NCBI GenBank assembly: GCA_026545225.1
Contig: CM048849.1
Span: 52,708,836 to 52,772,835 of the forward strand
Direction: 5' to 3'
Source: Cornus controversa
Lineage: Eukaryota; Streptophyta; Magnoliopsida; Cornales; Cornaceae
Length of the DNA stretch: 64,000 nucleotides
Positions 28,311 through 50,958 of the stretch are shown in pieces. A model generated the notes under the pieces. It was not told where the DNA came from, did not search any database, and saw nothing but the letters and a program-made list of their open reading frames with translations. Position numbers and translations under genes: made by a program. Numbering within the stretch: the first letter of the stretch is position 1; each line of letters opens with the position of its first letter.

Positions 28311-28403
28311 AAATTAAAAAACTCTTTTGTATTTTTAGTAGTAGTATAGATATATGGGTAAATGATTTGTATAAAAAGCATAAATGTAGCAAGGTTATGA
28401 TTT

Positions 28404-28406
<3 letters not shown>

Positions 28407-28442
<36 letters not shown>
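28407..28442. repeat. (AT)n microsatellite
   Basis: About 18 AT dinucleotides just outside the Helitron. Confidence 0.95.
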
Positions 28443-28446
<4 letters not shown>

Positions 28447-29257
28447 TTGTACATGTAATCAAATAAAATTAGAAATGTGAGAAGCTCATGGAGGTTAAAG
28501 ACGTACAACATGCATGAAAGTTAACCAAACAAATTTCTATATTAATTGACTTTGTGTTTCCGTCTAATTTCCTTTTACCTTTCTAGAGTCCCTTCAAAGT
28601 TTGTAACTCGTTTGTGGTACTCACCTTGAAGTAATAGATTGAGTTGAGGGTAGGAAACTTTAATTGATTGGCAAGTAATGATATCGAGAGAAGAAAAAGT
28701 AGCTGCTGATCCAATCAGCAAACAGACACGTACAGTTCACTCCTGAATTGATTCAAATCAAAGATTAAGGGCCTGTTTGAATGTATCCTTGAATTTTAAT
28801 AGAATTACAATGAACACGTACAAATCATTATTTTTAGAATCCCTAAAAATGATCGTCCAAGAAGCAATGCTGCTTTTTAGGCCCAAAATATTTTCAGACC
28901 AGGCTTAGGAATGTTGTTTCAAACATAGAACCGCATTACTGTTTTATTTCTAGTAGTATTACATGCACTATAATGTTCTCTCCTAATATGAAAACATCCA
29001 AGTTTTCAAAAGGAAACTATATCATATGCCTGTTACATTTACCACCAAGGGCATAGTCCAAGTGATATCACTCAAAGTTTGAGTCCTCCATGCAATAAAC
29101 AGGTGTGTGTAATAAATCAAATCAAAAATCAAATCAAATCTAATCTTTATGGCACTTAAATCCCAAACTTGCAAGTTGAGAAAGGGCCTAAATTTAGCCG
29201 GGCCGAGCTCCAACAGACATATATCAAGTTGTATTGTGTTGCAGACCCGGCTTTCGA

Positions 29258-29259
<2 letters not shown>

Positions 29260-29289
<30 letters not shown>
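29260..29289. repeat. (CT)n microsatellite
   Basis: Fifteen CT units, at the position of a shorter CT run in the duplicate at about 43604-43628. Confidence 0.95.
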
Positions 29290-29292
<3 letters not shown>

Positions 29293-30648
29293 CAAAATAT
29301 TGAAGTTTAATACAAGTATAATTGTATTATTTCTTATTATTATTATTATTAATTATGGAAAATATATACATTTATTTAAGACACAAACTAACGTGAAAAT
29401 GCGCATCTTCATCATACAAAATTTCTCAGCCTTACTTTCAGACCACAAAAGCCTTTCTCTTGTTTGGACCTCTCGGAATTGCAGATCGATCTGTAGCCCA
29501 TCAAATCAGTAAATGGGCCTTGCAATCAAAGCAGGGTGATAAGCACAGGCCATATGGCCCAATTGGCTCCTAGGGGCCCTTTGTTTTCTGTTCTACTTCT
29601 CCTTTGTATTTTATAGTATTATAAACAAGAAAACAAACATGAATGAAGACAATAGAATGAACATGCCACTCTCGTGAATTCACATGGATGAGAACATACC
29701 CACGCGCGCCGTACTGCTACAATCTGATATGGGGTTGTGGACAAACTCCTTCGTTTTCTCGTTTCAAGAATATATATATATATAATATCCACACGTAGTT
29801 TTCGAAGTAATATATGCCTTATGCAAGGGAATTATTAAAAAGCGGTGAGGTCAAATTTTAGAAAACTTTTCTCTTAACTTTCATTTATTGGTAACCCTTT
29901 TTTAAAAGTTTACAATTCTTCGAAGATTACTTATTAGATGGTCTAGTATTATGTGATCCGGGGCTAATCATTAATTATATTCAAGTAAATGTGTTAGTTT
30001 TATTTAATTTTTTTATTTACGTATCAACTAGTGATTAGTCAAGACGACATGGTACAAGACGGTGTAATAATTTTTTTAAATTCCTTTTCTCATATGTTGA
30101 GACGTGAAAAAAGATAAGGAAAAGTATAATATAATTTATGAAATCACTATAATTCTCTTTGTTGTTGTTGATTAAAATGTTGTTGGATATTGTTTCCTCT
30201 TTGATTAAAATATTCTTGGATATGGTTCATATTTTGATTTTTTTTCTCAAGAAGTAACTGTAATGATATAAATGCATTAAATTGTATAAGTCATTATACA
30301 GCTAATTTATGATCGAAAAACCCAAACTCAACACAACTTGTTGCATGTGATAATTATATTTTTTTTATATATAAAAGAAGAAAAACTAATGATTTATTAA
30401 TTCGTGAACTCAACAAATAAAACAAGCGGCGATCCAATTCAGCTAAAATGCATGTATAGAAAAGTGAGTCGGTGGTATGATAGGTGTTTTCTTGTGCGTG
30501 TTTCAAAACAAAGTTAGTTGATAGGGAAGATATATACAACATATCCCTATCTTGTTCGGATACGCTTGATTTTTTTCTTTCTAATCTAGGCGAAATCCAG
30601 TCCAAATGCATCCCAGTTTTCGTTGGATGCTATTTTCATATGGTGTAG

Positions 30649-30650
<2 letters not shown>

Positions 30651-30706
<56 letters not shown>

Positions 30707-30711
30707 GTATG
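30651..30711. repeat. (AT)n microsatellite
   Basis: About 30 AT units with two GT interruptions. Confidence 0.95.
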
Positions 30712-31439
30712 TTAGAATAAATGTAATTGTATAAATGTCTTATTGGAGTTGACGAGATACCTCAAGTTCAACATTGGTAGAATATTTTAGACGATTAAAA
30801 ACCGTATGCAACGATTGTTCTAACCTTCCAGTACTACAAGTGATGATGTTAGGGTTAGGATGTTAGTTTGGATATTGGAAGGGCTTTGCTTGGTAGGTTG
30901 GTTTTGATGGAACCGTGAATATTTATAGCACACTTTGATTCAAATGATTCTAGAGTTAACAATTTTTCATTTTTCTTACATTTTAGATATTTGTACACAT
31001 TTTTAACATATTTTTTACCTGTGATTTGTCTAAAATATATATATATATATATATATCTGGATTTTACTAATCCTAAATAATATGTCTAAGTGAAAATTAA
31101 AATATTTATATAGACGTAATGAAGTGACCGACACTGATAACCATTGTGCACAAAAATCTCCTTTTGACGGCATCCTAGATGACAAAAATTTGTGTCGTCA
31201 AACAAAGAGTTTCCGTCGTACTAAAGCTAGAGTTTGACTCAAAACTAATAAAAAGATACTCTAAAATATCCTTACCCACCCATATTTAATATCTTTTAAA
31301 GGTAAATGTAATTGTATAAACCCATATTAAATATCTTTTAAAGGTAAATGTAATTGTATAAACCCATATTTAATATCTTTTAAAGGCAAATGTAATTGTA
31401 TAAATGTATCATTCTATTGACCGAATAACCGCTGTCTCA

Positions 31440-31740
31440 ACTTGTTATATGTCATAAAGTATTTATTAATAGTTCTTATTATTAAAAAATTTAAAAGTTT
31501 AATTTTTTTAAATATTTATTTTTCATTTCAAAATATTGTAGTTTTGAATTTGAGACTTATCACTTATTACTGATTCTCATTTGAAAGTGGTTCGACCAAT
31601 CGACCCTGCTTATTACTATACAGTTTTTATTAAAGTTTTTGCAAGTTTTATTTTTGTACAAAGTATAGAGAAGCAACGACATCCATCCACTATTTTACAC
31701 TCGTTAGTACCACTTTTTCAAAATTCCAAGGAAAAGAAAA
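31440..31740 (+). mobile_element. TGATAAGTG element copy 3, fragment (fossil)
   Basis: The piece shares TTACTGATTCTCATTTGA, GGTTCGACC, TTTTTATTAAAGTTTTTGCA and CATCCACTATTTTACA with copies 1 and 2. Only the 3' portion is present. Confidence 0.6.
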
Positions 31741-31779
31741 ACACTATCACTTTTCTATTTTCGTTATAGTAGTAGTAGT

Positions 31780-32060
31780 ATCGATATATTATTCAAAGTT
31801 CCAAGCTTTCACTATTTTCACTATAGACATATATATACACACACACATATATATATGTACATACATATATATTGTAGTAATTGAAATAATATTATACTAA
31901 CATGAAACTCAAGTGTTTCATTAGTTCCGGATAGTTTATTCTCACTATTTTGTTATAGTCACTATTTTGACTATACACACATATATATATATACATATAT
32001 TGTAATAATTGAAATAATATATACTGACATGAAACTCAAGTGTTTCAAGTCTCTAAGTGA
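31780..32060. repeat. Local duplication of about 130 bp
   Basis: Two similar pieces each carry an AT/AC-rich run, then TTGAAATAATAT, then CATGAAACTCAAGTGTTTCA. Confidence 0.7.
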
Positions 32061-33944
32061 TGTGGGATAGTCCTGAATATATAATCTTTTCTCATGTCGA
32101 GATATATGACTAGAAAATGTCTAGTTTAGGTAAATACGAACTCTTTGAGAATGAAACAAAGAGCCTCAAAAATAATTAATAACCAAAGAGCTCTAACCTA
32201 AGTTTATGCCATTCTCACCGATTAATCTACAAAAAAAAATCACAAAATGAAAGTTAAGATCTTATACCAATTAAAAGAGTAACAAAAATAATTGCTGACT
32301 TGAAGCATCAAATTTCACTATTTTTTTTTTTTTTTTTTTTTTGCAATATGAAAAACAAAGTTCTTTCATTAAACACTAACTCTCTTTTTCTTTTTTCTTT
32401 TTTGTTATAGTGACAAATACTATCTTCAGCACATATTCTTGAAAGAATTAAAAAGAATTTAGTAAAAAGACTATCTAATATCAAAAGCAACTGATATCAT
32501 TGAACTTAAAAATAAAGCATAATAGAATTTTATCTTATGGTAGACCTCTTTAGTTCCTTTGTACTCCTCTTGATATAAATTCATGTTGTCCATAAATGAT
32601 TTATACATTTGATCATTATTTCGGATAATTGATAGTGTTTAAGAGTATATTAACAGTTGATAATTTTTAGGAGTGGCAAAAGAATTTTAATATAACTAAA
32701 TGATTTACTAGTACTTTATTTAATAGAAGACAATAGAATTAGTAGTAATTTTTGTTTGGTAAATTATTTATATATATATATTAAACTCTTTTTATTTTAT
32801 CTTTCTTTTACCAATCTGATTTTATTTTAATATAATTCTCATATTTCTAATAAAATGTGTTGTTACGAGTGAGAAATCCAATAAAAAAAGATTTCTAATA
32901 CAATTGGCAACTTTCTTTATATATATTATTCTCATACTTCAAATAAAATGTGTTATTAAGAGTGAGAAATCCAATAAAAAAATAATTATAATACAATTAG
33001 TAACTTTCTATATATATATATATATATTTGTTTGGTAGTTTTTTTTATTACGTTTTATATAAATATATATATATATTAAACTCTTTTTTTTTCTTTTACC
33101 AATCTGATTTTATTTTAATATAATTCTCATACTTCCAATAAAATGTGTTGTTAAGAGTGAAAAATCTAATAAAAAAAGAATTCTAATACAATTGGTAACT
33201 TTCTTTATATATATTAAAGAGGTAAAAAAAACACGTGTGCATATATAATTTATGTGTCTATTTTTTTAATTAAAAAAAGTGTACTGAAACTTAAAAACCT
33301 CTTTGTACTTTTAATAGTAGTATAAAATATATAGATATAGAATTTTTTTGCTAATTTTTTTATTACTTTTTTTTTATATATCTATTAAACTCTTTTTTTT
33401 TCTTTTACCAATCTGATTTTATTTTAATAAAATTCTAATAATTCCAATAAAATGTGTTGTTAAGAGTGAGAAATTCAATAAAAAAGAATTATAATACAAT
33501 TAGTAACTTTCTATATATATATTATACTCTTTTTCTTCTTTTACCAATCTGATTTTATTTTAATATAATTCTCATACTTCCAATAAAATGTGTTGTTAAG
33601 AGTGAAAAATCTAATAAAAAAAGAATTCTAATTCAAATGGTAACTTTCTTTATATATATTAAAGAGGTAAAAAAAAGAAGAGAAAAAAACGTGTGTTTAT
33701 ATAATTTATGTGTCTATTTTTTTAATAAAAAGTGTACTGAAACTTAAAAAACTATTTGTACTTTTAATATATAGTAATATAGAATATATAAGAATTTTTT
33801 TGGTAATTTTTTTATTATGTTTTTTTATATATCTATTAAACTCTTTTTTTTTTCTTTTACCAATGTGATATTATTTTAATAAAATTCTCATACTTCCAAT
33901 AAAATGTGTTGCTAAGAGTGAAAAATCCATATAAAAAAAGAATT

Positions 33945-34185
33945 CTAAAGGTGAGATGAATATACAACATTGAGAAGGGTAGAACACATACATGGGACGA
34001 ATAATCGAATATCCTAGGGGGAAAAACCATATGGATAGAGGTCTCGGCCTCCAAAATCGGAGTGAGAACAACTGGAAGAGAATCAATAGCGGCAATCAAC
34101 CCTATTGGGTGGCAACAACCAACATATAACCAATAGCGAAAACTCAAAAATCCATGGTTTCCCGATAGAACCCTATTTCGTGTAT
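33945..34185. other. Compositionally foreign 240-bp island
   Basis: Inside the low-complexity array lies complex sequence of about 40% GC, including CCTAGGGGGAAAAACC and GGTCTCGGCCTCC, with a minus-strand open frame of 96 codons. The text looks organellar or like a gene fragment, but I could not assign it to a plastid or mitochondrial gene from memory. Confidence 0.35.
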
Positions 34186-34567
34186 ATATATATATTTGTT
34201 TGGTAGTTTTTTTATTACGTTTTTTTATATATATCTTAAAATCTTTTTTTTCTTTTACTAATCTGATTTTATTTTAATATAATTCTCATACTTGCAATAA
34301 AATATGTTGTTGAGAGTGAGAAATCTAATAAAAAAGAATTATAATACAATTGCTAACTTTTTTTTTACCAATCTGATTTTATTTTAATATAATTCTCATA
34401 CTTACAATAAAATGAGTTGTTGAGAGTGAGAAATCCAATAAAAAAAGAATTCTAATATAATTGGTAACTTTCTTTATATATATTAAAGAGGTAAGAAAAA
34501 GAGAGAAAAATGTGTGCTTATATAATTTATGTATCTATTTTTTTAATATATAAAAAAAAAGTGTAAT

Positions 34568-35771
34568 GAATGTATAATAGTGGATGTTTGTCGTTATTTT
34601 TCTACACTTCGTACAAAAATAATAAAATTTACAAAAACTTTACTAAAAATTGTATAGTAGTAAGTAAGGTCGAACCACTCTCAAGTGAGAATCAGTAACA
34701 AGTCTAAAATTCAAAACCTAAATCTCTTAAGATGAAAAATAACCTTCTGATTTTCTTTTATAATAAAAACTAATACTAAATGTCTTAGATCAAATGATGA
34801 GACAAATCTCAAGGAAATAGAATTCACCACTATGGATCTATATAAATAATTTTTTTACTATTCTTATATAGTTTTTCCTCCAATAATCAATACATTTCAC
34901 CAATCCAATTAGAACTTGGAAAGATGAAGGAAAATATAGAATAAAAAAGAATGACTTGATTATATATGAGAGAGACATTTCTTTACTTAATCTGATACCC
35001 ATTAGCTGGGTAAACAGAGGTAGGCATTCTTCGAATTACCGTTATTTGGCAAACACGAAGAATCGTCCCTCTAATTTTAGAAAATAAAATTCAGAATAGA
35101 AGAGTAGAAGAATGCCCTTGAGAGAAAAAATTAGATAAGAAAATAAAATAACTTACTTATATTTCAGCCATGGTGGCTTCATCACTCCCTTGAGAAGGAT
35201 GCTTACGCTTGCATATCAACAAAAAATAAACAAATATAAATGAAACTACTATTCTTCATTGAATCAAGAAAACAATTACACTATTTTTTTTCTATAATTT
35301 ATCTACAATTTTCTAACTCCTTTCACCATCCCCTAAAACCTCTTATTTATAGAGTTAGAAGGGAATGGTTTAGGTGGAAAAAAAATTAAATACAAAATAC
35401 AAAATTCAAAATACAAAAAACAAAAATTCAAAATAAAAAATTTTGAATTTAAATATTTAATATTTGATCTCCATATCTTTAATTTGAATTCTGAACTGCA
35501 GATGTAGCCGTGCAAAAAGTATTTTGTAAAGTTTTGAACTTGAGATCTCTTGTGAAGTAGATTGCACAGAATACCATATCTCATACAATTTTTTTTATGT
35601 TCATATTTGGCTATATATATCCTTTATAGCCCCTTTTTGCTATTTTTCTTCTTATTTGGAAATCAGTCCCTGTAAAACATAAAATGCAAAGATAAGAACA
35701 TTTAAATAAAGTAAAATAATAATTAAAGACTTATTTTGAGATATAAAATAGCAAGTTTTGTTCACTTATCA
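34568..35771 (-). mobile_element. TGATAAGTG element copy 2 (fossil)
   Basis: This is the same family as 26598-27892 in the opposite orientation. It starts TGATAAGTGAACAAAAC at 35771 on the minus strand, and its other end reads ACATTC at 34568. The flanks (minus strand AATAC and ATTAC) fit a 5-bp target duplication with one mismatch. Unlike copy 1, its ends are not inverted repeats of each other. It disrupts a Helitron 5'-end module, so it is younger than that module. Confidence 0.65.
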
Positions 35772-36109
35772 GTATTGAAACTTAAAAAACTCTTTGTACT
35801 TTTAATATTACGTTTTTTTATATATCTATTAAACTTTTTTTTTAATTTTTTGCTAATCTAATTTTATTTTAATAAAATTTTCATACTTCTAATAAAATGT
35901 GTTGTTAAGAGTGAGAAATCCAATAAAAAAAGAATTCTAATACTATTGGTAACTTTATTTATATATATCAAAGAGGTAAAAAAAAAAGAGAGAGAGAGAG
36001 AAAATGTGTGCTTATATAATTTATGTGTCTATTTTTTTAATAAAAAAAAGTGTACTAAAACTTAAAAAATCCTTTGTACTTTTAATAGAGTATAGATAGA
36101 TATTTATTT

Positions 36110-36880
36110 ATTCATCAATTTCAATACCCAAATTTCAAATCATAAATATATAACCAAACAACCCTAATTTCAAATTAAAAACCACTAAATTACATGTATA
36201 AAAATTATGTTTTAATTAGTTTAATTTGTTTATGGCTTAAGTTTATTTATTTAAATTTTAGTGAAAATAACAGTATACTTTATTTGATTAATGAAACCAT
36301 AATTTACAACCCAAATAAACAAAAATCTTTATTTTCTGAGCTTTAGATATTAGAGGCCTTAGATGGGTTATATTTTTATATTCTAAAAACCAAGAAAATA
36401 AACTTTTGATTTGAAACTTACTAATTTTTCTTTTATTTTTTTCCACTTTTCTTGACAACTAAAATAAAAATTAGCTATGTATATTCATTAATTTCAATAC
36501 CCAAATTTAAGATCATATATATATAATCAAACAACTCTAATTAAAAAACCCTAATTCCAGTTTTGAAACCCTCTTTGAAAAACCCTAAAAACCCCTAAAT
36601 TACATGCATAAAAATTATGTTTTAAATTTCAGATCATATTTATGTTTATAAAAAAACAACCTTAATTGAAAACCCTAATTTCAAATTGAAAGCAAATCTT
36701 TAACCCTGATTGAGTGAGAAAAAATTATTACATAATTACTCATATAAATAAATTATACAATCAACTTGAATTTTTGAAAAAATATATATTAAATTTTGAT
36801 CATTTAGTTTTATAATAATTCTAATAATATTAAAATATTAAATTTTGGTTGCTTTCTACTCGCATGATTTATGCAAGTTC
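36110..36880. repeat. Degenerate direct repeats, no gene
   Basis: Two related stretches (about 36114-36215 and 36485-36620) share ATTAATTTCAATACCCAAATTT and AAATTACATG.ATAAAAATTATG. The rest is AT-rich, and the open frames are low complexity. Confidence 0.5.
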
Positions 36881-36899
36881 ATCTAACATCTCACATCTC

Positions 36900-37507
36900 T
36901 TCTTTGGACTCCTATTAAAGTGAAATCAGGTAATCGACCTACTTTGAGAAATTATTGGAATTGCATCTCTCTCAATTTTTTTTCTCTTTCAAATTACTTT
37001 TTTCTCTTTGTTTATACATCTAATCACATGAACAAATATAAAATAAAAAGCCTACTTGGGAAAAAATTAAAGAAAATAAATAATAAAAACGAAAAGAAAA
37101 AGAAAAGATTTGCAATAGTTAAATAGCATGAAAAGAGAGAAATTCATGGATAATAAATAGCATAGAACATCTAATCACATGAACAAACATACAAGAAAAA
37201 ATCCTACTTGGAGAAAAAATTAAAGAAAATAAATAATAAAAAATAAAAAAAAGAAACTTACATGAGAGTTGATGTGAGTTGAGAGGAAATCGAATTGGAA
37301 TGTCAGTTGATGAGAGTCGAGAGCAAGAATCACTTAATGATGAGAGCCGTGTTTGTGTTTGTTATTTTAGGAGTTTTAGGGTTGGGTTTATGTTATAACT
37401 CTATTTTATATTTAAAAATAAAAATAAATAAATAATATAATTACATTATAAATAAAAACAGTGTACTGTACTGAAACTTAAAAATTCCTTTGTACTTTTA
37501 ATAATAA
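36900..37507 (-). mobile_element. Helitron 5'-side remnant abutting the next Helitron
   Basis: The stretch aligns with 39090-39650: shared blocks ACATGAACAAATATA, AAGCCTACTTGGGA, GAGAGTTGATGTGAGTTGAG and the terminal GTACTGAAACTTAAAAA module. It stops at TTTTAATAATAA, directly against the CTAG end of the Helitron at 37508. Confidence 0.65.
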
Positions 37508-39073
37508 CTAGTTTAAAGCACGTGCGATGCACGTGAATAACAAATAAATTAAAATTTTATTATAACACTCAAAACATTCAAAACTATTATAACACATCCA
37601 AACAGATTAATTAAAATATCCAAAAGTATTTTCATATGTAACATTGGTAATATAAACTCAGTTGTTGAAAAAATAAAACTATAAGGTAACTATTATTCAC
37701 ATGGAAGGAATCAAGTACAAACTATAAGAAATCAAAAGTTATAATTATAACAATTCATAAACAATCTATTACTTTTCTTTTGAAAATTTTCAACACTTTA
37801 TCCTTTTTATATTTCTGAGTTTTTCTTCAAATAAATCATTCTTAAGTGAAACTTCTTTGATAGCTGCCACCACAAAATTATTTTTGACTACATCATTTTT
37901 ACTGTTGTCTATCTTGATCATAAAAGGAAATAATTTTCCTTTGCAAATTGTCACTTTGTCGCAAAAATTCATTCATCTCATCGTCCTACAAAAAGAACAA
38001 ATTTATTTTACTAATATTGATACATTTCAAATGAATTATTTCATCCATAAATTTTATGAGTGAGAAAAAAAGTATTAGCTGACTTTTTAACTGTATTAAC
38101 TCATATAGTGAACAATTTATTAATGACTGAAAATCATCAAATATTGTTAGAAATGCATTATTTGTTATATCTTTGACTCAAAATTGCATCATAAATCTGC
38201 ATAAATGAGTATATTTCATTGATACATAATAATAAAGAATGATATATTTGTCATATTGTAATTTTTTTTTATAAAAAAAAGAATGTTTAAAGATATAATA
38301 ATACCTTTGAAAGCATTTAGCGTCTTTTGTTTTGCAATTAGTACAATTGAGTCCATCCATTGTACCATGGTTCGGTTGCATTTTTAATCTCTATAATTCT
38401 TACTTCAAAACAGTAATGTGTTTTCTACAAGTTGAGTGACAAAATATATTTTTTTAATAAAAATTAATTATAATCATATGATATAATAAAGAAAAATTAA
38501 ATGAATATATAAAATAATAATAATAATAATTTAATACCTTGAATGCCATTGTGGAATTTTCAATTATGTCTTCAAGTGGAAGTTTTTCACCCTCTTTGAA
38601 TAATTGATATTTTGAACTTGTAATGAGAGCATCTATGTCCTTGCCATTTACGTTTTCTTTAAACCTGTCAAAGCATAATAAATTATTGAAAAAATATGTT
38701 GTTAATATGTACAAATACATAGACACGTAATCATTAATTAATTAGTATAGAGCATTATGTTATAATTATTAATTAAAAAAATCCCTTAGTACTTTAATTT
38801 AGAAATAAAAAGAAAAGGATTTGCTTGCATTCGAAAGGGTTTTGCTTGGGTAATTCTATTTTTTTAATTTAAAAATTAAAAAAAGGAATTTTTTTTTTAA
38901 TTTAGAAATTAGAAATAAAAAGAAATGGTTTTGCTTAGGTAATTTTATTTTTTTAATTTCAAAATAAAAAAGGAAAGGATTTTGCTTGGGTAAGTCTATT
39001 TTTTTAATTTAAAAATAAAAAAATAGTGTACTGAAACTAAAAAATCCCTTTTTACTTTTAATAGCAGTATAGA
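37508..39073 (-). mobile_element. Helitron 2 with RPA remnant
   Basis: On the minus strand it begins TCTATACTGCTATTAAAAG at 39073 and ends CTAG at 37508. Next to the 3' end is an intact hairpin: CACGTGC (37519-37525), loop GAT, GCACGTG (37529-37535). That is the 3' structure diagnostic of Helitrons. The sequence from 37508 to 38710 aligns with 21575 to about 22850 of Helitron 1. It is too short for a Rep/helicase, hence non-autonomous. Confidence 0.85.
38150..38700 (-). pseudogene. RPA-like gene remnant in Helitron 2
   Basis: Minus-strand blocks match the remnant in Helitron 1: about 38560-38672, RFKENVNGKDIDALITSSKY and GEKLPLEDIIENSTMAFK, ending at a GT donor; then about 38320-38370 with LNCTNCKTKDAKC, the second half of the C4 finger; then about 38100-38200 near the DBD-C core. 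The first block is intact here where Helitron 1 has a stop. Upstream DBD-A and DBD-B exons are missing. Confidence 0.7.
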
Positions 39074-39089
39074 TATATATAAGTATAGA

Positions 39090-39650
39090 TATAGATATAG
39101 ATAGATACTCACATGAACAAATATATAATAAAAAGCCTACTTGGGAGAAAAATTAAAGAAAATAAATGATAATAAAAAAAGAAAAAAATAAAATATTTGC
39201 AATAATTAAATTGCAAGAAAAGACAGAAATATATGGATAATAAATAGCATAGAACATCTAATTACATGAACGTGTATAAGAAAAAATTCTACTTGGAGAA
39301 AAAATTAAAGAAAATAAATAACAATAAAAAAGAGAAAAAGAAAATAAACTCACATGAGAGTTGATATGAGTTGAGAGGTAATCGAATTGAAATGTCTGTT
39401 GATGAGAGTTGATGAGAGCTGAGAGGAAGAATAAGCTGTTGATGAGAGTCGTGCTTGTGTTTATGATTTTAGGAATTTTAGGGTTTACTTTATGTTATAA
39501 CTCTATTTTCTATTTAAAATAAATAAATAATATAGGGACATTAAAAAAAGGTTTTGTATAAGTTATAACTCTATTTTTTTTAATTTAAAAATAAAAAAAT
39601 AGTGTACTGAAACTAAAAAAACTCTTTTGTACTTTTAATAGTAGTATAGA
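39090..39650 (-). mobile_element. Further Helitron 5' end
   Basis: A complete 5' end module finishes at 39650 (minus strand TCTATACTACTATTAAAAG), and the body aligns with 36900-37507. The Helitron pieces are therefore stacked in the same direction. Confidence 0.7.
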
Positions 39651-39920
39651 TATAGATACAAACATTTATGTTCTTTTCTTTCTTCCTTTTTGTTCATATT
39701 TTTTCCTTCCCACTATATGTACATGTATAGTGTATATACATAAACAACTACTTTATTTTTCTTTCTTTTTTCAATGGTTTTTCCTTTTCTTTTTCTTTCA
39801 AGAGCGATGTCGCACGACATATATATATATATATATCGCTATGGTGCAGTAATATATATATAACCAGCTAAAAAACAATTGAAGAACTAAAATGAAAGTA
39901 TTTGTTTATAATATACACTC

Positions 39921-39956
<36 letters not shown>

Positions 39957-40080
39957 TCAAATGAAAAAAGAAAAGCAGAAAAAGCCAAGTAGCATATATA
40001 TGTATAGAAGTTCAAAGTTAACTGAAGAGAGAGAAAAAGGGTTAAAAGGACAATTTTGTCCTAAAATTTTATATTTTTAG
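39650..40080. other. Non-coding between Helitrons and PYL locus
   Basis: Poly-pyrimidine runs and an (AT)n tract at about 39915-39955. No gene is seen. Confidence 0.5.
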
Positions 40081-40536
40081 TGTCCCGTTAAAAAAGGAAC
40101 ATGCAGTAGTTATGGTGTTATTCTAAGTATGTAGAACCAATTAAAAAAGCACTGTTCTCCTGATAATGTCTTGTGATTCACACATTCCAAACTAAAAATG
40201 AATGTATCCAAATTTTTTTTTTTTTTTTATAATTTTGGGTGTTCGTTTTCTTTCAACCATGATGGTGTTGGCCGTCTTAGGACACCACATATTTCACCAA
40301 AAATTAAATCGACCATTCAAACTTTTAGACAAATTCTCAATGGCTCGAAACATTTAATTGATTAAGTTCAAGACCTTAAACTCATCAGCCAGACTAATTT
40401 TAATAGTTTCACTATTTTTCAAACTGAAAAAGTATACCCTCGAGCCACAAAATTGATCACCATTTTGGAATTAACAATTTGAAAATAATTTATATGGAGT
40501 CACTTAAACGACTGTTCTTGGACGATTGCTCTACAA

Positions 40537-40879
40537 ATTGGTGGAAATTAATCAAAAAAATTAAAATGCTTTAATGTAATAAATGTCATACTTTTTTTAT
40601 CAATTAATATACTCTTCTAGTTCTAAAGTATTTACATTCGTGCCATCAACAAACAAATAAAACTATTTATATAAAGTATTAAAATATTTTTATTAATATT
40701 TGTTTATATTGATATGCTTTTAAATATTTTTAATAATCTATATACTTATTATAATCATTTCCTATATAATTTTAAAATTTTGAAATTATGGTTAATTGAA
40801 TTAAGGAACATATTTTTAAAGTAGTAAATATATACATGCTACTCTTATATCTATCTATATCTATATCTATCTATCTATC

Positions 40880-40920
<41 letters not shown>

Positions 40921-41565
40921 TCGGCTAAAAGTGTGAGGCTTTTTATCTTTTCTATACATTTTAAAATTTTTATATTTATATTATTGTTGGTATGAGTTAA
41001 TACTTTCTAAATTAAATATGATTATTAATATGTTCCTAAACATCCTTGTCATAGGATAGAAATGTTGGTCATTAATAATTGTATTGTTAAAAGTTTCTTA
41101 ATTCTTTTTTTTAAAAGTTTCTTTTTTCACAACAATGCTCAAACATTTCACATTATTATAATATTTATATATTTTTTCCTATATTTATATTATTTGTTAT
41201 ATGAGTCAATACCTTCTAAATTAAATATAGTTATAAATATATTTCTAAATCTTTCCTTTTCCTACAAAGGACACAAACTTTGCTTATTAATAATTGTATT
41301 TTTTTTTTAACAACACCCAAAAGACACAAAAGTTTAACAAAAGTTTCACATCTCATTATTATAATCATTTCTTATATAATTTTTAAAATTTTGTAATTAT
41401 GGTTAATTGAATTAAAGAACATATTTTTCTTTTATAAATAGTTTTATTTGTTTATTGATGGCACCAATGTAAATACTTTAGAACTAAAAGAATATATTAA
41501 TTGATGAAAAAGTAAGACATTTATTACGAAAAAAACATTTAATTTTTGTGATTAATTTTTATCAA
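40537..41565. mobile_element. Long-TIR DNA element (Mutator- or hAT-like MITE)
   Basis: The left end from about 40537 (TTGGTGGAAATTAATCA) is the inverted counterpart of the right end to about 41565 (TGATTAATTTTTATCAA). The inverted match continues inward for more than 100 bp through AATAAATGTC, TCAATTAATAT and GTGCCATCAACAAACAAATA. Internal direct repeats of about 70 bp recur at 40750 and 41360. There is no transposase. It is absent from the duplicate at 49930-50638, so it arrived after that duplication or was lost there. Confidence 0.75.
40848..40920. repeat. (CTAT)n(TTA)n microsatellite
   Basis: A tetranucleotide run passes into a trinucleotide run inside the long-TIR element. Confidence 0.9.
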
Positions 41566-42130
41566 TCAGTGAAGTAATTGAACACTTAAACAATTGTCAC
41601 TGACACTCCTCATTTATATGTGCTCTTCGGCACATTGACGTAGCAATCTTTAAATACGAGATTAATGTGAATTTTTTACTAATTAAAAACTATGCTAATA
41701 ATGTGTACAATTAATGGTGAGACAGTAGTGGACCAGGCATTCAGAGAATTAATCAATGCGACTAAATAACCTTAGGTGAATTACATAAATCAACGAGTAA
41801 TAATGATAAAGATGAATGACTTTGGGGGCAAAGGACTCAAAACCCATAAACCACTAACCGACAGAGCACAAGAAGCCAAAATTAGAGCAAAATACTGATC
41901 TGTGACGTATTAAGTCTCTTTGGTTTTAAGTCCCGATGTCTCCAATTTTAGCCGTGCACATGACTCAGTGGGACCTTCTCATATATCAGACCACAAGAAA
42001 TCAGACAATACAGTAGTTATTAAATTTAATGACCTTTACATCACACCCAGGGACGCCAAAGAGTAATTTACCATTTACCCCCCAAAAAATAAAAAGACGG
42101 CAAAGCTAGCTTCACCATCCTCAAGTTGTC

Positions 42131-42138
42131 TATATAAA
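42131..42138 (+). promoter_or_regulatory. TATA box of the PYL gene
   Basis: TATATAAA lies 124 bp upstream of the ATG. Between them is a short duplicated leader motif (ACAAGAACCC.AACACAGTAC twice, about 42156-42198). No clear ABRE (ACGTGGC) was seen nearby. Confidence 0.6.
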
Positions 42139-42261
42139 GCATCTAGTCCATGTTCACAAGAACCCAACACAGTACTTACAAGAACCCCAACACAGTACGT
42201 AGATACACCACACCCAATCGCAAAAAAAACCAACCTTACAAAAACCCTAGCCATATTAGCA

Positions 42262-42774
42262 ATGGCGATGAACCAATACCACACATACGACGACCAGCTC
42301 TCACCAAATCAGTGTAGCTCAACCATGGTGCGGACTATAGACGCACCATTGCCTCTGGTGTGGTCCATGGTCCGTAATTTCAACGACCCACAAGCGTATA
42401 AGGGATTCGTAAGGGACTGCACCATGGTTAAAGGTGATGGTGGTGTCGGAAGTGTGCGTGAGCTAAAGATGAAGACGGGCATACCAGCAAGATCAAGCAC
42501 AGAGCGGCTCGACAAACTTGACGACCACTTGCATGTTACGGGGTTTAGTATTATCGGTGGTGAGCACCGCCTTCAAAATTATCAATCTACCTCTACTCTT
42601 CATCATCAGGATGAAGAAGAGAATGGTGGTAAGACGGTGCTGATCGAGTCCTACGTGGTGGATATTCCGTCGGGAAATACTGAGGAAGAAACACGCCGCT
42701 TTGCTAATACCATAATAGGGATTAACCATAAATATTTGGCTGAAATAACAGAGATGATGGCTATGGAGGCTTAA
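42262..42774 (+). CDS. PYR/PYL/RCAR abscisic-acid receptor
   Basis: An intronless 170-residue START-like ABA receptor. In the family, ABA binding closes a gate and latch, and the complex inhibits group-A PP2C phosphatases to release SnRK2 signalling. In PYR1 numbering the pocket is kept: K59 (in AYKGF), E94, F108, I110, H115 and R116 (latch GGEHRL), Y120, S122, E141, F159 and N167. Departures: the gate SGLPA is TGIPA (S85T, L87I), preceded by M83 and K84; H60 is Gly and N90 is Arg, both at the PYR1 dimer contact. The SIIGGEHRL block and CSS near the start recall PYR1/PYL1, but the N-terminal helix before HTY is short. The C-terminal tail is short, and an acidic HHQDEEENGG loop replaces the usual one. 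I infer a working ABA pocket, with altered dimerisation and perhaps altered PP2C choice. Confidence 0.95.
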   Translation: MAMNQYHTYDDQLSPNQCSSTMVRTIDAPLPLVWSMVRNFNDPQAYKGFVRDCTMVKGDGGVGSVRELKMKTGIPARSSTERLDKLDDHLHVTGFSIIGGEHRLQNYQSTSTLHHQDEEENGGKTVLIESYVVDIPSGNTEEETRRFANTIIGINHKYLAEITEMMAMEA

Positions 42775-43185
42775 CTTTTTCTTTTAATTATATGAGTACC
42801 TACCCATGCATGTCTCTTTATATATGTACGTACAGAGAGGTGTATTTTTTCTTTTTCTTTTTCTTTTGGAAATTAAGAAGTTCAGATTTATTTTTGTTAA
42901 AAAGTTAATATTAATTTTAAGACACTCTTTGTGAAGTCTTGGAATTAGAAAAGATATGTATTTGGGTGATAGAGTTGAAGCCCGGCATCTTGCATGGGAA
43001 GTGAGGTCTTTAACAACTGAACCACTAAAGTTCTTTGATTAATAATGCACCATATGTGGTCACTAGAAATGGAAACATAATAAGACTGGGTCACATATGT
43101 GGTCACTAGAAAGATCATCTCGTAAGTATTGTCCAAGAAAATTATAACAGAAATTACAACTTTTTCCACACATCTATGTTATTCA

Positions 43186-43250
<65 letters not shown>
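42775..43250. other. PYL 3' flank, non-coding
   Basis: Poly-pyrimidine and AT-rich DNA, ending in the microsatellite at 43188. A direct repeat CACATATGTGGTCACTAGAAA / CCATATGTGGTCACTAGAAA occurs at about 43050-43110. Confidence 0.5.
43188..43246. repeat. (TA)n microsatellite
   Basis: About 29 TA units, at the left edge of the duplicated PYL downstream flank. Confidence 0.95.
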
Positions 43251-43254
43251 ATTA

Positions 43255-44880
43255 ATAAAGAAATGACTCAGAAGTGAGTAGTGAGAGAAGGAGCTCAATC
43301 AGCAAACAGACACTCTTGACTGCTGAAATCAAAGATTAAGGGTCTGTATGAATGTGTCCTTGAATTTGAATCGAATTTCAATGAACACAAATCATTATTT
43401 AAATGGGGCCGTTTAGAAAGCTAGAGGTAGGCATCTCAAAAATTGATATTTAAAAAATCTTCAATTTTGTTAATTTAAGAATCCCTGAAAATGATGGTGC
43501 AAGAAGCAATGCTGCTCTTTAGGTCCAAAGTAATTTCAAACAAGGGTTAGGAATGCTGTTTGAAACATGATATCTTAAGTGGTATTGTGTTGCAGGCCCG
43601 CCCGGCTCTCTCTCTCTCTCTTTCTCTTAAACAAAATATTGAAGTTTAATACAAGTATAATTGTATTATTTATTATTATTATTAATTATGGAAAAGATAT
43701 AAATTTATTCAATTTAACCTATAGGAATTAAGCTTGTCACTAGGGTTTGGTTTCACAAACCAACGTTGAAAATGCGCATCTTCATCATTCAAATTTTATC
43801 AGGCTTGCTCCCAGACCACAAAAGCCTTTCCCTTGTTTGGACACTTGGGAATTGCAACTCTGTAGCCCATCAAATGAGTAAAGTAAATGGGCCTTGCAAT
43901 CCAAGCTTCGATTGGCTCCTTCGGGCCCTCGTGGCTGATGCCTCACCCTTTGTTTTCTGCTTTCCATCGTTCTCGTATTTGTATATTATAAAGAAGAAAA
44001 CAAAATTGAGTGGAGACAATAATGAGCATGTCACTGCTCTTAATTTCACATGCTAACTAAAATGGCATTGTCTGGGTGGCTCAAAACTAACTTATTAGTT
44101 TTCTGGTTCCAAGAATAAAAAAACAGGATATATCCGGACATTACTTTTCGGAGTAATATGCCTTAATCCTTATGTAAAAGGTAATTATAGATTTTTTTTA
44201 TTTATTGGCAAGTAACTCCTTTAATATCTTAATCCAGTAACAAAGTTACGTAGACTTTTTACGTAGAATAATAACTTGAAAGTTCTTCGGATTAGTTCAA
44301 TTTTATTTTTATTTGAGTAGAGGTGGTAAATTCCTATCACATAATGTCATGGTGATATCACATGATGGGACCTACTACTTCACGCACATAAAACTATTAT
44401 GTGTCTCCTCTGATTCGAATTCTCAATCATTACTCTCTCACGTGAGGTCAAATTATTATATCTTTTTAAAATTTGCAATTCCTCCTAATTACTGTAATTC
44501 TCTTCTTTATTGATTAAAATGTTCTTTGTATACTGTTTGCATACTTAATCAAATCATATAAGATATTTTTCTTTTAAAGTAAATGTAATTGTATAAATGT
44601 ATAAAAAACAATGCTAAGCCATTACACAACTAACAATAGCACGCAATCATTTTTCTTTCGCAATCATTTTTCTTGCAAATTAATTAGGAAGACAGGGATT
44701 AATAACACAAGCGGTAGACCTCTTTCATCTAAATTCAATCAGTGTAAACGAATGCGCACAAATAGCAGCATAAGTTGCAGTTGGCGGGGTGGTCCAACAA
44801 AGAATATATGTTATATTCCCCATACGTGTCTCCACATTTCTCTGCTTCTTCATTCAAATTACTCCGTTTTTTAACTGTGG
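43255..44880 (+). repeat. Segmental duplicate B: PYL downstream flank
   Basis: Partner of 28690-30620; see that entry for shared landmarks. Short open frames in both copies (for example around 29396 and 43766) come from the same ancestral non-coding sequence and are not conserved as proteins. Confidence 0.88.
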
Positions 44881-44975
44881 TTGACAACACTTGAACGAGA
44901 AGTGTAACCCTTGTTAGAAAATATCTTTTTACCAACAACACTTGACAAGTACAAGTCTGTTGGAAAGCGTAATTT

Positions 44976-45310
44976 ACTAGTTTGGTTTCAATGTAACTCT
45001 AGAAAGCTTAATTTACTAGCTTGGTTTTCATATAACTCTAGATTATTTATACTCCACTCTCATCTTTTCTAGATTATTTTAGAGTTAGAATTTATGATAT
45101 TTTTCTTCTTTTTAGCCTATGGTAACTGTATTTCAAAAAATGGAAATTCAATAACTAGTTTGGTTTCAATGCAACTCTGGAAAGCTTAATTTACTAGCTT
45201 GGTTTTCATATAACTCTAGATTATTTATAGTCCACTCTCATCTTTTCTATTATTTTAGAGTTACAATTTATAATATTTTTTAATTGAAATTCAATAAGAA
45301 GTATTGGAGA
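44976..45310. repeat. 177-bp tandem duplication
   Basis: Two copies start ACTAGTTTGGTTTCAATG at 44976 and 45153. Both continue through AGCTTGGTTTTCATATAACT and CCACTCTCATCTTTTCTA. Confidence 0.9.
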
Positions 45311-47260
45311 ATAAAATAATTCGAAACTAGTGTTAGACTCAAAACAGAGGTAGTTGATAAAGAAAATGTACCATAGATGCGTCTATGATAGGACCAAAAT
45401 TAGTGTTCGACCCAAAACTGAGGTAAAATCAAATAGATGCGTTGTGTAGACATCAAAAAATTATATGATGGACTCAAAATATAATTTGAGCTTACCTTCA
45501 ATTTGGCCCACTTCGAAATATAGCCCAATGAGTCAGATAATTCAAAGTCCAGATCCACCACAAATAAATGGGTCATGGGCTTATCCAAATTGTCTAAGAA
45601 GTTCAAACTCACTAGAAAATGGGTCAAAAGATAATTGATATATATGTATAAATATTTATCATCAAAGATATATATATATATATCTATTAATTGGACAATT
45701 ATCAAGAGTAAAGAAGTTACTAGTTTGTCCTTCCAAGAAGTCTATAAATAGAGGTAAATGATGAAGGAAGAGGGGGGAGGAAGAAGACTCTCGGAGAATA
45801 CTGAAACTCTACAAGACTTTTCACTTAAAATCTAAAGTTCTAAAGCATCTAAAACCCAGCCTGGAGGAGAAGAACAACAAGCATATCATCCACATGTCGT
45901 TCTTCATCAAAGTTTAAATCCAATTCAAGATCAAGCTCCAGCAGTCCTTGAATTCGAATCACTAAGGAGATCGAATCAGAGAAATTTGTCTTTCTTTTGT
46001 AAAGATCTACAGAGATTTGTAATCCATATATCTTGAAATTAATATATTTGATATATTTGTCCATGTGTTTAGACTTGAAATTTGTGTGTACAAATGCATT
46101 TATGATAGGACCGAAACTAGTGTTGGACTCAAAATAGACGTAGGTGATACAGAAAATCTACCATAAATGCGTCTATGATAGGACCGAAACTAGTGTTGGA
46201 CCCAAAATAGAGGTAGCTGATAGAGAAAATCTACCATAGATGCGTCTATGATAGGACCGAAATTAGCGTTCGACTCAAAACTAAGGTAAACTCAAATAAA
46301 TGCATCTAGGATTCGACTCAAAATAGAAGTAGCTAATAGAGAAAATCTACCCTAGATGTAGTTATTCATTCCATTTAGCAACAAGACATAGCATATATAG
46401 CATGTGATAACTGTATTTCATAAAAATGAAATTCAATCAAGAGTACTAGGCAGAGGACTAATAAAACAAAAGTTGAGACTCTCATTCAAAGAAAGGTGAG
46501 TCCTTTCATGTGTAGGATAAGATCAAAGCTAGTGTTAAACTCAAAATAATTAAGAGTACTAGGCGGAGGATGAATAAAACAACAGTTAAGAGATCTCATT
46601 CAGTTAAGCACACTTAGAGAGCACAGTAGAACAACGAGTTGTATGTTGCGTTTGGGATCTTATTCATTCTTATTGAGAAGCTTTCTTGCAATAAATTCCT
46701 TATTTGAGAAAGCGCTAGTTTAGTTTCGTTCAAGCTCGTGTAGAAAACTTCTTTTTCGTAGTCACCCCACCAAGGTAGCTTCCTCCAGAAAAAGGTGAGT
46801 CCTTTCGTGTGTAGATTAGGACCGAAACTAGTGTTCGACTCAAAATAATCAGGAGTACTGGGTAGAGGACAAATAAAACAGAAGTTGAGAGATCTCATTC
46901 AATGTCTAGAGAATACAAGTCCTTCAATATGTAGGACAAGATCAAAATTAGTGTTTGACTCAAAATAATCAGGAGTACTAGGCAGAGGACGAATAAAACA
47001 AAAGTTGAGATATCTCATTCAGTGTCCAGAGAAAGGCGAGTCCTTCCGTGTGTTAGAACTGCCGAAACTAGTGTTCTACTCAAAACTGAGGTAGTTGATA
47101 TAAAAAATCTAAGCTTGAGAGATCTCATTCAATTTCCAAAGAAAGGCGACTCCTTCAGTGTGCAAGATAGAACCATGTTCGACTCGAAACAAAGGTAGTT
47201 GATTGAAAAAATCTACAAGAGATATGTCTATTTCGTTCCATCTGACGTAACTTTGCAATT
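45311..47260. repeat. Tandem-repeat domain, likely of a Gypsy fossil
   Basis: Units of about 73 bp containing AGGACCGAAACTAGTGTT, GACTCAAAATAGA and ATAGATGCGTCTATGAT lie at about 45311-45440 and 46100-46370. A second set with GAGTACTAGGCAGAGGA, AAAAGTTGAGAGATCTCATT and GGTGAGTCCTTTC.TGTGTAGGA recurs at about 46480-47200. They surround the LTR fragment at 45720-46095. I infer they belong to the non-coding region of the same Gypsy-type element. No gene. Confidence 0.6.
45720..46095 (+). mobile_element. Gypsy-type LTR fragment (fossil)
   Basis: The same family as 11890-12605: AAGTCTATAAATAGAGG, then GAACAACAAGCATATCATCCA, then TTTGTAAAGATCTACAGAGA, ending TTGTGTGTACA. It is better preserved than the other copies. 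No coding part is attached. Confidence 0.65.
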
Positions 47261-47289
47261 AAAACTCTGGTCACTTTTGCTTATAAATA

Positions 47290-49650
47290 AATGATAATCA
47301 TATTGTTACCCAATAATTGTCCTTAGAAGGGGAGGGGGGTGAATATGGACTATAAGCAAATAATGGAACGTTTTCGATTTAACATATTTTAACAAAAGTA
47401 AGCTTGATTGAACTTTTGTTAAACACTTGGTGTATAGATTGATTTAGCAAGAGATCATCTTATTGCACAAAATAAGTCATATAGGTATGTTAAATAATTA
47501 AGCATGCATTTATGATTAAGATATATTCATACGTTTAATGCATGTTTATTGTGAATTAACAATATATTCAATTCAACCAATCAATCCACTTATCTTATCC
47601 TCATTTGAATGTATATAATTATATAATCAATAATTCTCATAACATTCATAAACATGCTTCTAGTATGTGAATATGTTTATTGCGCATTTTATCAAACACG
47701 TGGTATGTAACTTGATTGACAAATGGATAATCAAATAAATTCTCAATCAATCAACATACTCCAAGCATTCATCCCATCCTCCTCATATGAATTAAAACAT
47801 ACAAACTCATAGTATTCATATATAAAACATATAGAATTTAAACAAATGAAATACTATAAATTAAAGGAGTTTAAGAATAGAGAAATGCAAACTAAAAGAT
47901 ACCACATTTTTTATATGGTTCGACACCTTCTGCCTACGTCTATGCCTCAAGAGCACCTCTTGAGGATTCCACTATAGAGTTTCTCTTAAGGGTGAAAAGA
48001 AAATCGTACAATTACTAAGTGAACCACTTGGACTTCTTTGTTCCGTAAACACCTCACAGAGACTTCCTTGTGATTATGAAGCTCATGACTTGGGCTACCC
48101 TGCTCAATGAAAATCTCATTAAAACTTCTTTACCAAACCAACTGTTTGGTCTTCTTTGCCAAGTGCACCACTTGGTCTTCCTCTCAGAAGTAAAATAATA
48201 GTTTGAGTACAATGAAAAATATTCCTCAATGGATAGATACACAAATGATAGCTTAATATTCTAAAGTTACAAATAAAGTATTCAAATGAAAAGCTCAACT
48301 ATAGGTTTGCAAGATGAATCACAGTGAATGATATACAATGTAAGGCTCAATAATGGTTCTTACAAGAGATGTTCTACCAAGTAGAATGCAAATATTTACA
48401 TTCAAGAGTTTCTCAAGTGTATGCCTCATGGGTAGGTTTCCCACTAGCTCTCTTCCTCTCTTTTCTACTCTCCTCTCTTGCAAAATGCAACTCAAACTCA
48501 TATATATAGAGTTTTGAAAGAATATAACCGTTTGGGGGTAATTGGGTAATTTAATGCAGAAACAATCGTTTGGAAAGTAGTCATTACAACTTGTTGGCAG
48601 TATCGGACGACTGATGACAAAGTTTTGGCCAGCTGAAACTACTCTTCGATTGGTTGAAACAATGTTTCAGCTTCCCTTGTTTTGCACACTATACTAGAAT
48701 GAATTCCAATTTCTACTAGCCGGCTGATGGGTTCTATTAGGTGACCGAATGTCGTCTACTAAACGACTGATGGGATCCATTAAGCGACTGAAAGTCCTCA
48801 AGTCGAAACTGTTCTCAGACTCAACCATTTTCTCACTCAGACACAATCCTGCAGAGTGGTTCAACACGCTACACACTGATTAATTATTTACATTGAACAC
48901 ATTTAAGTAAATCTCAATTTACTTTAAGTTATTTAATGTAAATAAGCACAGTACCCCCTATTTGAATTCAATTAAAATAGCTTCAAAATTAAATTGCAAA
49001 GTAAATCAAAATCTGATTTTTCAGTTTTAGTACAAAACGGATTTTCACTCATTTGACATAAAAATTCATTGTGCAATATGAATAGCCAAATCAAATCATT
49101 TGGGGCTGAGAAAATTCATATGACTGTGATAAATTATGGGGTACAATTACCGAAACTTTTTATGTCAAAAATCATTGAAAACTCATATTTACATTTTTGT
49201 CCCTAGAATCCAACACTTAGCCAAATTTCTGCGCTAAGTTTTCAAAACAGTAAATGTGCATGACAAGGCTATATAAAGTGAGTCATTTGAATTCAAAGCC
49301 TAAGTCATTGTATCTAAGAATCATAAATGATATGATTGAAAGACATGGTCTTAGTTATGACTTAATATTTGAGTTCTTCCAAAACTTATGATAGCTCGAA
49401 CTAACTCAACCATAGTAACGGCCTCATGATGTTATAAATGAAGTTCATGGCCTATTGCTTATGATCTAGGGACTTATGGATGATAGTTTTAGGTTCCTTC
49501 ATCATGTGACTTAGATTTTCTTCAACTTCGCTATTAATCTTGATTATTGATCTTTGAGTTCTAGGATCATATGGCTTCATATATTTTCTTTTAATTCGTT
49601 GGAAATCCAACGCCTTTAAGATAGTTGAGATAATTTGATATCTTGTAAAA
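47290..49650. mobile_element. Unclassified LTR-like dispersed repeat (fossil)
   Basis: It begins with CCTTAGAAGGGGAGGGGGGTGAATATGG and continues with TATATGGTTCGACACCTTCTGCCTACGTC, text that recurs in many plant genomes in LTR-retrotransposon remnants. A later block has repeated GGCTGATGGG/ GACTGATGGG motifs (48720-48790). The G-run motif is the reverse complement of that ending the LTR-like piece at 25070. No coding domain was recognised. The boundaries are uncertain. Confidence 0.4.
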
Positions 49651-49929
49651 TGCACACTCAAGTAAACTTATTAAATATGCACTTCAATAAATTGTAATAA
49701 TTAAAATTATCCAAATAACCTTGAATTAAAACATTGAGATCAACACATATGATATTGTATATACAGAAGACATTTCTCCTCTTTTCTCTCCCACCCTAAA
49801 AATATGGGTTTCCTTGGCAAATTATCTTTTCTATCATCATATAATGGTGCACACACAAAACATCATATAAGGGTAAACATTTTAAAGTTTAGGGATTTTT
49901 TTTTTATTTACTCTTGTGTCAGAGTACCC

Positions 49930-50638
49930 GCAAATATAAAATAAAAAATTAAAAGTTCATGGGAGTTTTTTACAATTTACCCAGCACAGTATCTAATAAA
50001 ATGAAGGTATGTTTCACATTCAATGTTAGGCTACATAATTTACATTCTACAACAATTATGACATCTTCGGTCACACTTATAAAAAGTAAAAAATAAAAAA
50101 TAATAATGTATCCAAAAAAATATATCTTATGATATCTTCTTTTTTGTTTTTCGTTTTTCTGTCAACGATGATGGTGTTAGGCTTCTTATGACACCACATA
50201 GTCCACCAAAAATTATATCTACCATTCCAATTTTTAGACAAGTTTTCAAAGGATTAAACATTTAATTGATTAATTTTAAGAATTAAAACTCATCAGCCCA
50301 ACTGATTTTAATAATTTACTATTTTTCGTAGCAAATTTTTTATTTATTTTTTTACTTTTAACATGGAAGAGGGGATTTGTACACGGACACCTATTCGGAG
50401 AACTTGAGGTGACCGGATGATGTCTGGCGTAACAATCTTCAAATATGAGACTTACATGAATATTTACTAATTTACAACTATGATATTGTGTACAATTAAT
50501 GCTGAGACAGTAGTGATCAGGATTCAGAGAATTAATTAGGTGAATTACATAAATCAACGAGAAGAAGGGATAAAGACGAATGACTTTGGAGCAATGAACT
50601 CAAACCCCATAAACCGCTAATCGACAGAGCACAAGAAT
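49930..50638 (+). repeat. Segmental duplicate C: PYL upstream flank, gene lost
   Basis: The stretch aligns with 40080-41890 (see that entry). It lacks the element at 40537-41565 and stops abruptly after GACAGAGCACAAGAA. Foreign GC-richer DNA starts near 50640, where the approach to a PYL gene would be expected. Confidence 0.85.
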
Positions 50639-50639
50639 G

Positions 50640-50958
50640 ACGAAGCCCAGAAGGCCCTGCAAGTGTTGGACGGGTCCAACGTCTGGAAGGACTATCCACC
50701 AGCTAGACTAAAAATAAAGGCTACCAAGTACCAACTGAGGTCCGAACCCTCCAATAATCCATGGGCCGACCTAGATAAGTCCAAAAGAGAGCCCAAATAT
50801 TAAATTGCATTTTTTCTTGTCCTGGTAAGATTAACGTACTTGGGAGAATTAGATCTCACTTTTTCTGCTTGTTTGAGCTTGATTCTCAGTCCCATCGTCA
50901 TATCATCTGAAAATCAATCTCATTCGATTTATTGTTTAAATAAATAAATATACACATT
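50640..50958. other. Unassigned GC-richer insert
   Basis: Sequence such as GTGTTGGACGGGTCCAACGT and CCATGGGCCGACC followed by a T-rich part looks like the tail of an LTR retrotransposon, but no partner is present. It breaks duplicate C. Confidence 0.3.

Follow-up and report, generated by a model that had tools for sequence, protein, structure and literature searches.

We analysed a stretch of 64,000 nucleotides from Cornus controversa (hereafter the window, C5:52708836-52772835, in a genome of 771.7 Mb in 61 contigs), which holds one intact gene of the PYR/PYL/RCAR family, called PYL below. Parts of both flanks of this gene recur nearby: the downstream flank (D) has a copy to the left of the gene (copy A), the upstream flank (U) has a copy to its right (copy C), and the complete locus lies between them (copy B). 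There is good support for a local duplication of D as well as of U. The matches are strong and rare in the genome, the two flank pairs are equally diverged, the copies have sharp edges, and no PYL remnant is detectable in them. By a modest preference, we read this as an old burst, of an ordinary kind, in which parts of the surroundings of a tandem-prone PYL lineage were duplicated. Coordinates are listed in Table 1.

Both flanks of the PYL gene recur on the same strand

The PYL protein matched PF10604 with 44.5 bits, over the Pfam cut-off, and PYR1 (9gnl) with an E-value of 3.3e-53 (phmmer), the match extending over the full domain as in other PYR/PYL/RCAR proteins. It is the only intact PYL gene in the window, and B is the only one of the flank copies found to have one.

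The initial annotation had proposed that the flanks recur nearby in the same orientation, in the order A (D only), B (complete) and C (U only), and alignments bore this out. For D, B 43296-44052 aligned to A 28712-29686 (+/+) in blocks that are 72-90% identical, with non-aligning stretches between them. The top score was 277 bits, and 50 first-order shuffles of A gave at most 33.7. For U, B aligned to C 50097-50637 (+/+) in two blocks of 78-83% identity, with a top score of 194 bits, against at most 35.6 for 50 shuffles of C. These matches are real, but their outer edges are shorter than first drawn: A extends to ∼30305 instead of 30620, and C starts at ∼50097 instead of 49930. The outermost 44 bp of C (50097-50140) are weak, as 4 of 60 shuffles equalled the score of the leftward extension, and the 97 bp between its two blocks (50328-50424) did not align to B at all (246 of 300 shuffles scored as high). 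Inside the weaker continuation of D, B 44264-44436 is a dispersed short repeat. A very lax blastn search with the flanks yielded AT-rich noise, and was not used.

Table 1. Position, strand and basis of the features found in the window
Feature	Position	Strand	Basis or remark
Copy A of D	28712..29686	+	left edge sharp; faint by-eye match may start at 28688
D continuation in A, weaker	29687..30305	+	patchy match to B, ending at B 44633
U flank of B, first part	40189..40496	+	matches C 50097-50327 and C6:34503816-34504087
MULE-like non-autonomous element, within U of B	40497..41611	+	9-bp target-site duplication, inverted subterminal repeats
U flank of B, second part	41612..41874	+	common to C
PYL gene of copy B, intact, single exon, 170 amino acids, PYR/PYL/RCAR family	42262..42774	+	open frame
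D flank of B	43286..44052	+	matches A 28712-29686, C5:57941855-57943708 and C9:32681828-32681958
D continuation in B, weaker	44053..44633	+	0 of 300 shuffles reach the score, two parts tested
Copy C of U	50097..50637	+	firm blocks 50141-50327 and 50425-50637
Sequence between AT-rich repeat and D in A	28356..28711	.	unrelated to the 3′ flank of PYL in B
Sequence abutting C, open frame of 54 amino acids	50638..50960	.	no match to B 41875-42261
Myb/SANT-like (trihelix-like) protein	9749-10618	-	Pfam
PADRE-domain protein	18132-18620	-	Pfam

The U flank is long in B because an element of 1,115 bp sits inside it. This element is bordered by a 9-bp target-site duplication (ATTTATATG, at 40488-40496 and 41612-41620), from which we take it to be a Mutator-like element (MULE), and it shares with non-autonomous MULEs both this duplication and the inverted subterminal repeats. 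The genome has at least 36 further long matches to this element (40 of 1180 candidates scored). The copy of U on C6 is continuous across the insertion point, which means that the element entered B later; here it is a subsequent insertion, and not the cause of the duplication. An empty insertion site in C was considered and dropped, as the C sequence fails to align there.

The flank copies are few and of similar divergence

Short repeats and the MULE-like element dominated the matches of whole-flank searches, and the flanks were therefore queried by their unique parts. D was found at four loci genome-wide (B, A, C5:57941855-57943708 and C9:32681828-32681958, 5 of 5 candidates scored), and U at three (B, C and C6:34503816-34504442, 3 of 3 candidates scored for each part of U). 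The initial annotation had named as evidence against itself flanks that belong to a dispersed repeat present at many loci. This was looked for and did not occur: with four and three loci in 772 Mb, a high-copy dispersed family is ruled out. Were loci placed at random, the chance of another one within 15 kb would be ∼1.2×10−4 for D and ∼7.8×10−5 for U, and at such low chances the local matches most likely arose locally.

The copies outside the window are also informative on the edges. On C6, U reaches B 42047 and includes a match to B 41962-42047; identity to B is 93% in the two longer blocks and 86% in a 42-bp block, and ∼236 bp of other sequence stand in for B 41654-41961. The D copies at C5:57.94 Mb and on C9 (2 of the 4) each span part of D, and the former (L063) carries an insert of ∼1.57 kb (L063 3396-4961), at both ends of which a short direct repeat was seen by eye. 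D begins at nearly the same point in A and at C5:57.94 Mb (∼10 bp apart or less), which suggests either that both copies derive from one truncated source or that D possesses a defined end; this near identity fits a common truncated source better than an independent gutting of each copy. Right edges vary, for D (the alignment of A with L063 ends at A 28959, that of A with B at ∼30305) as well as for U (C ends at B 41874, C6 at B 42047).

The nearly coincident left edges of these two D copies, together with the copies on other chromosomes, is what one would expect if D and U were low-copy mobile elements with fixed ends, landed near PYL by chance. We hold this to be quite improbable, given the very small number of copies, the differing right edges of both flanks, and the coincidence of ∼10−4 needed for each of two families to have a member less than 15 kb from PYL. 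A by-eye reading of the C6 copy, the only one read for this purpose, revealed no target-site duplication either.

Divergence was measured as Kimura two-parameter distance (K2P). For D, it was 0.156±0.017 between A and B (603 sites), 0.159±0.027 between B and L063, 0.172±0.034 between A and L063, and 0.161±0.046 between A and C9. For U, it was 0.153 between B and C (399 sites in the two clean blocks; 0.307 if the unalignable middle is included), and 0.161±0.032 between C and C6. The duplications had been described as old, and a K2P of ∼0.155 in both local pairs agrees with this; it would represent roughly 6 to 12 million years at rates often used for plants, no clock being known for this plant. 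The equal divergence of D between A and B and of U between B and C suggests a single epoch of local duplication.

High-identity blocks of D alternate with non-aligning stretches, as they might if D were a conserved functional unit (promoter or non-coding gene) with several copies under selection. This is the least probable of the explanations considered, and we give it very little credence: D has diverged to the same extent as U, the copies at C5:57.94 Mb and on C9 are incomplete, and an Rfam scan of the window gave no match at gathering scores.

No PYL remnant is found in the outer copies

In the initial annotation, the flanks were the residue of a tandemly duplicated flank-PYL-flank unit, whose outer genes had been gutted by transposons. 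PYL coding remnants beside A or C, expected from such a loss, were looked for in the window and none was found. Outside 42262-42774, no match was significant: the best tblastn E-value was 4.7 and the best blastn one 1.5, a protein hidden Markov model (HMM) gave three matches (E 1.7, 2.6 and 10), and a nucleotide HMM gave none at E up to 10. The gene with its near flanks, compared by blastn with the window left of A and right of C, had no significant match either. A genome-wide search with 41875-43285, the 1.4 kb absent from A as well as from C, yielded 19 matches (14 of 14 candidates scored). Apart from the query itself, those on C5 comprised AT-rich repeats, the PYL array at 59.6-59.7 Mb described below and a 43-bp piece at 54.58 Mb, with none at A or C. 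At a K2P of ∼0.155, a PYL remnant should be easy to see.

The copies end sharply, A ∼520 bp past the stop codon and C ∼390 bp before the ATG. Beyond these points, the sequence left of D in A is unrelated to B 42775-43290 (94 of 300 shuffles scored as high), and that right of U in C is unrelated to the B promoter, 41875-42261 (258 of 300 shuffles, and likewise in an anchored test). A Helitron had been placed at the position of the gene in A. What is seen there is an AT-rich repeat that ends near 28355, and ∼350 bp of other sequence (28356-28711) intervene before D, so that this repeat is not at the A junction. In a search that passed over very common words and scored 40 of its 49 candidates, 28446-28711 within this interval had no other match listed. 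At the C junction, the frame of 54 amino acids had no Pfam match and no second place in the genome, and 50639-50803 occurs once in the genome. Judged by these searches, the sequence at both outer junctions appears to be no recognisable repeat. With sharp junctions, no recognisable repeat at them and no PYL remnant, the gutting of outer genes by transposons is not sustained. What stands of the tandem duplication is an old, local duplication of the flanks on one strand; a former presence of PYL in the outer copies is not supported.

A whole-unit history nevertheless deserves attention. It supposes two or more tandem duplications of the complete U-PYL-D unit, followed by the loss of both outer PYL genes, of U in A and of D in C. 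The flanks do lie head to tail on one strand, the flank pairs agree in strand, order and age, a PYL array exists on the same chromosome, and a pair of PYL pseudogenes sister to the gene of B lies on C9, at 67 kb from a piece of D. Yet no gene or remnant was seen in the window outside 42262-42774, and blastn found in the window neither U left of A nor D right of C; farther away on C5, genome searches revealed no U or D except D at 57.94 Mb. The spacers are not homologous, as 30306-40188 and 44634-50096 had 0 blastn matches at E 1e-3, though a short spacer could have given way to later insertions. Edges are sharp, that of A being away from the repeat named in the initial annotation. Moreover, the 10 kb fetched around the U copy on C6 held no PYL (one HMM match, E 4.7), nor did the 10 kb fetched around the D copy at C5:57.94 Mb, which indicates that flanks can be copied alone. 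We regard the whole-unit history as doubtful, if worth serious consideration, and it is somewhat doubtful that the two outer copies ever held PYL.

A burst of partial copies is more economical than the loss of two outer genes. In such a burst, an old local episode around the intronless PYL gene would have placed copies of both U and D close by in the same orientation, and other pieces of the same episode may have gone to C6, C5:57.94 Mb and C9. Breaks at or soon after copying would have cut the copies, leaving sharp edges, and AT-rich repeats would later have pushed the copies apart. We infer that one episode made most copies, and that most copies were partial from the start.

Several points weigh against this reading. 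A whole-unit duplication followed by loss would leave exactly what is seen, namely D, U-PYL-D and U in this order on one strand. K2P is lower for U between B and C6 (0.081±0.015) and for D between B and C9 (0.121±0.036 on 108 sites), so one episode need not cover everything, and all K2P values come from alignable blocks only. Finally, the C9 pieces show that PYL sequence of the window lineage was, at least once, copied elsewhere and then decayed.

In plants, partial duplication can occur via double-strand-break repair or ectopic templated insertion. Short, sharp-edged pieces without whole genes, near and far, are common to these processes and to the present case, the difference being that no junction here is tied to a particular repair path. 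Tandem or proximal duplication with birth and death in the PYR/PYL/RCAR family is the other known counterpart: local copies, a paralogue array on the same chromosome and decayed members are all present, but the nearby copies show flanks instead of the gene. A tandem PYL pair is reported for cucumber (PMC8759363), and the visible rows for Rosaceae contain 0 (PMC8957196). We found no literature joining PYL, tandem duplication, abscisic acid receptor and pseudogene. The flank copies have no visible activity here and seem to be remnants left by the birth and death of family members. They are a fresh but ordinary example of a known process, gene-family turnover. They also illustrate that flank matches alone can hint at lost genes that may never have existed.

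PYL relatives form an array on C5 and an inverted pair on C9

The PYL lineage is tandem-prone. On the minus strand of C5:59646344-59726015, there are ten PYL matches, eight loci with long matches and two with shorter ones. Some array members are broken, among them L010 by one in-frame stop and L022 by two.

On C9, two PYL pieces are 78-81% identical to the window PYL and sister to it with a support of 1.0 (FastTree, 15 sequences). At 0.064, the branch of the window gene does not reach half the length of the branches leading to the C9 pieces (0.127 and 0.130, plus 0.027 shared), as expected if the gene was kept by selection. Their decay makes a loss of PYL in A and C possible, though it does not demonstrate it. 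The pieces form a 1.2-kb inverted repeat of PYL pseudogenes at C9:32614058-32615259 (merged L023/L030, 1413-2614). As RNA, its predicted folding energy was −598.7 kcal/mol, against −254±13 for 15 shuffles, with 438 inter-arm pairs. A 21-nt exact match is common to this pair and the window PYL, and a 201-bp query over its left end matched C9 alone, in both arms (2 of 2 candidates). On this folding model, the inverted pair is a possible source of small RNAs.

Arginine replaces the pocket lysine in part of the lineage

Aligned to PYR1, the window PYL has an arginine at K59, and thus departs from the abscisic acid (ABA)-dependent PYL receptors in its pocket lysine. The same arginine is present in 5 of the 8 array loci with long matches (L010, L011, L012, L014 and L016). 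The remaining 3 have lysine, as do both shorter array loci and L018-L021, four other loci with long single-frame matches, PYL loci with split matches being left out.

In PYR1, this lysine is described as binding the ABA carboxylate, and Arabidopsis PYL13 as a family member without it (PMC4333806). Three algal PYLs are reported to have arginine at this site, one of which, MeenPYL3, failed to bind ABA; in the same source, AtPYL4-K81R lost its basal activity, MeenPYL3 still gave no ABA response after its arginine was changed to lysine, and the authors consider that arginine would be suited to ABA receptors lacking basal activity (PMC12717121). From the MeenPYL3 reversal and this view, arginine alone need not abolish ABA sensing. 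In the literature consulted, glutamine and threonine are the seed-plant replacements named for this lysine, and K59R is present in engineered PYR1 receptors (PMC9750858, PMC10746540).

One could imagine that the burst scattered promoter, gene and downstream pieces separately, that the C9 pair is transcribed into hairpin small RNAs acting on the window PYL, and that an arginine branch with altered ABA dependence would be so controlled; this scenario is in our opinion unlikely. With the key ABA-binding lysine changed to arginine in some receptors, and a hairpin-prone PYL pseudogene, this lineage may matter more than the flank copies.

Other features of the window

A frame of 198 amino acids (61103-61699) had no Pfam match, and we take it, by eye, to resemble a Harbinger-type transposase. 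The region 32001-40000 is very AT-rich (23% GC), and its related repeats are partly common to 21.5-28.4 kb, some of them inverted. The AT-rich repeats on the left of A and those on the left of B are mutually related (25 blastn matches), and no argument was built on them. A tandem array with a period of 398 bp and 7.3 copies occupies 55036-57896.

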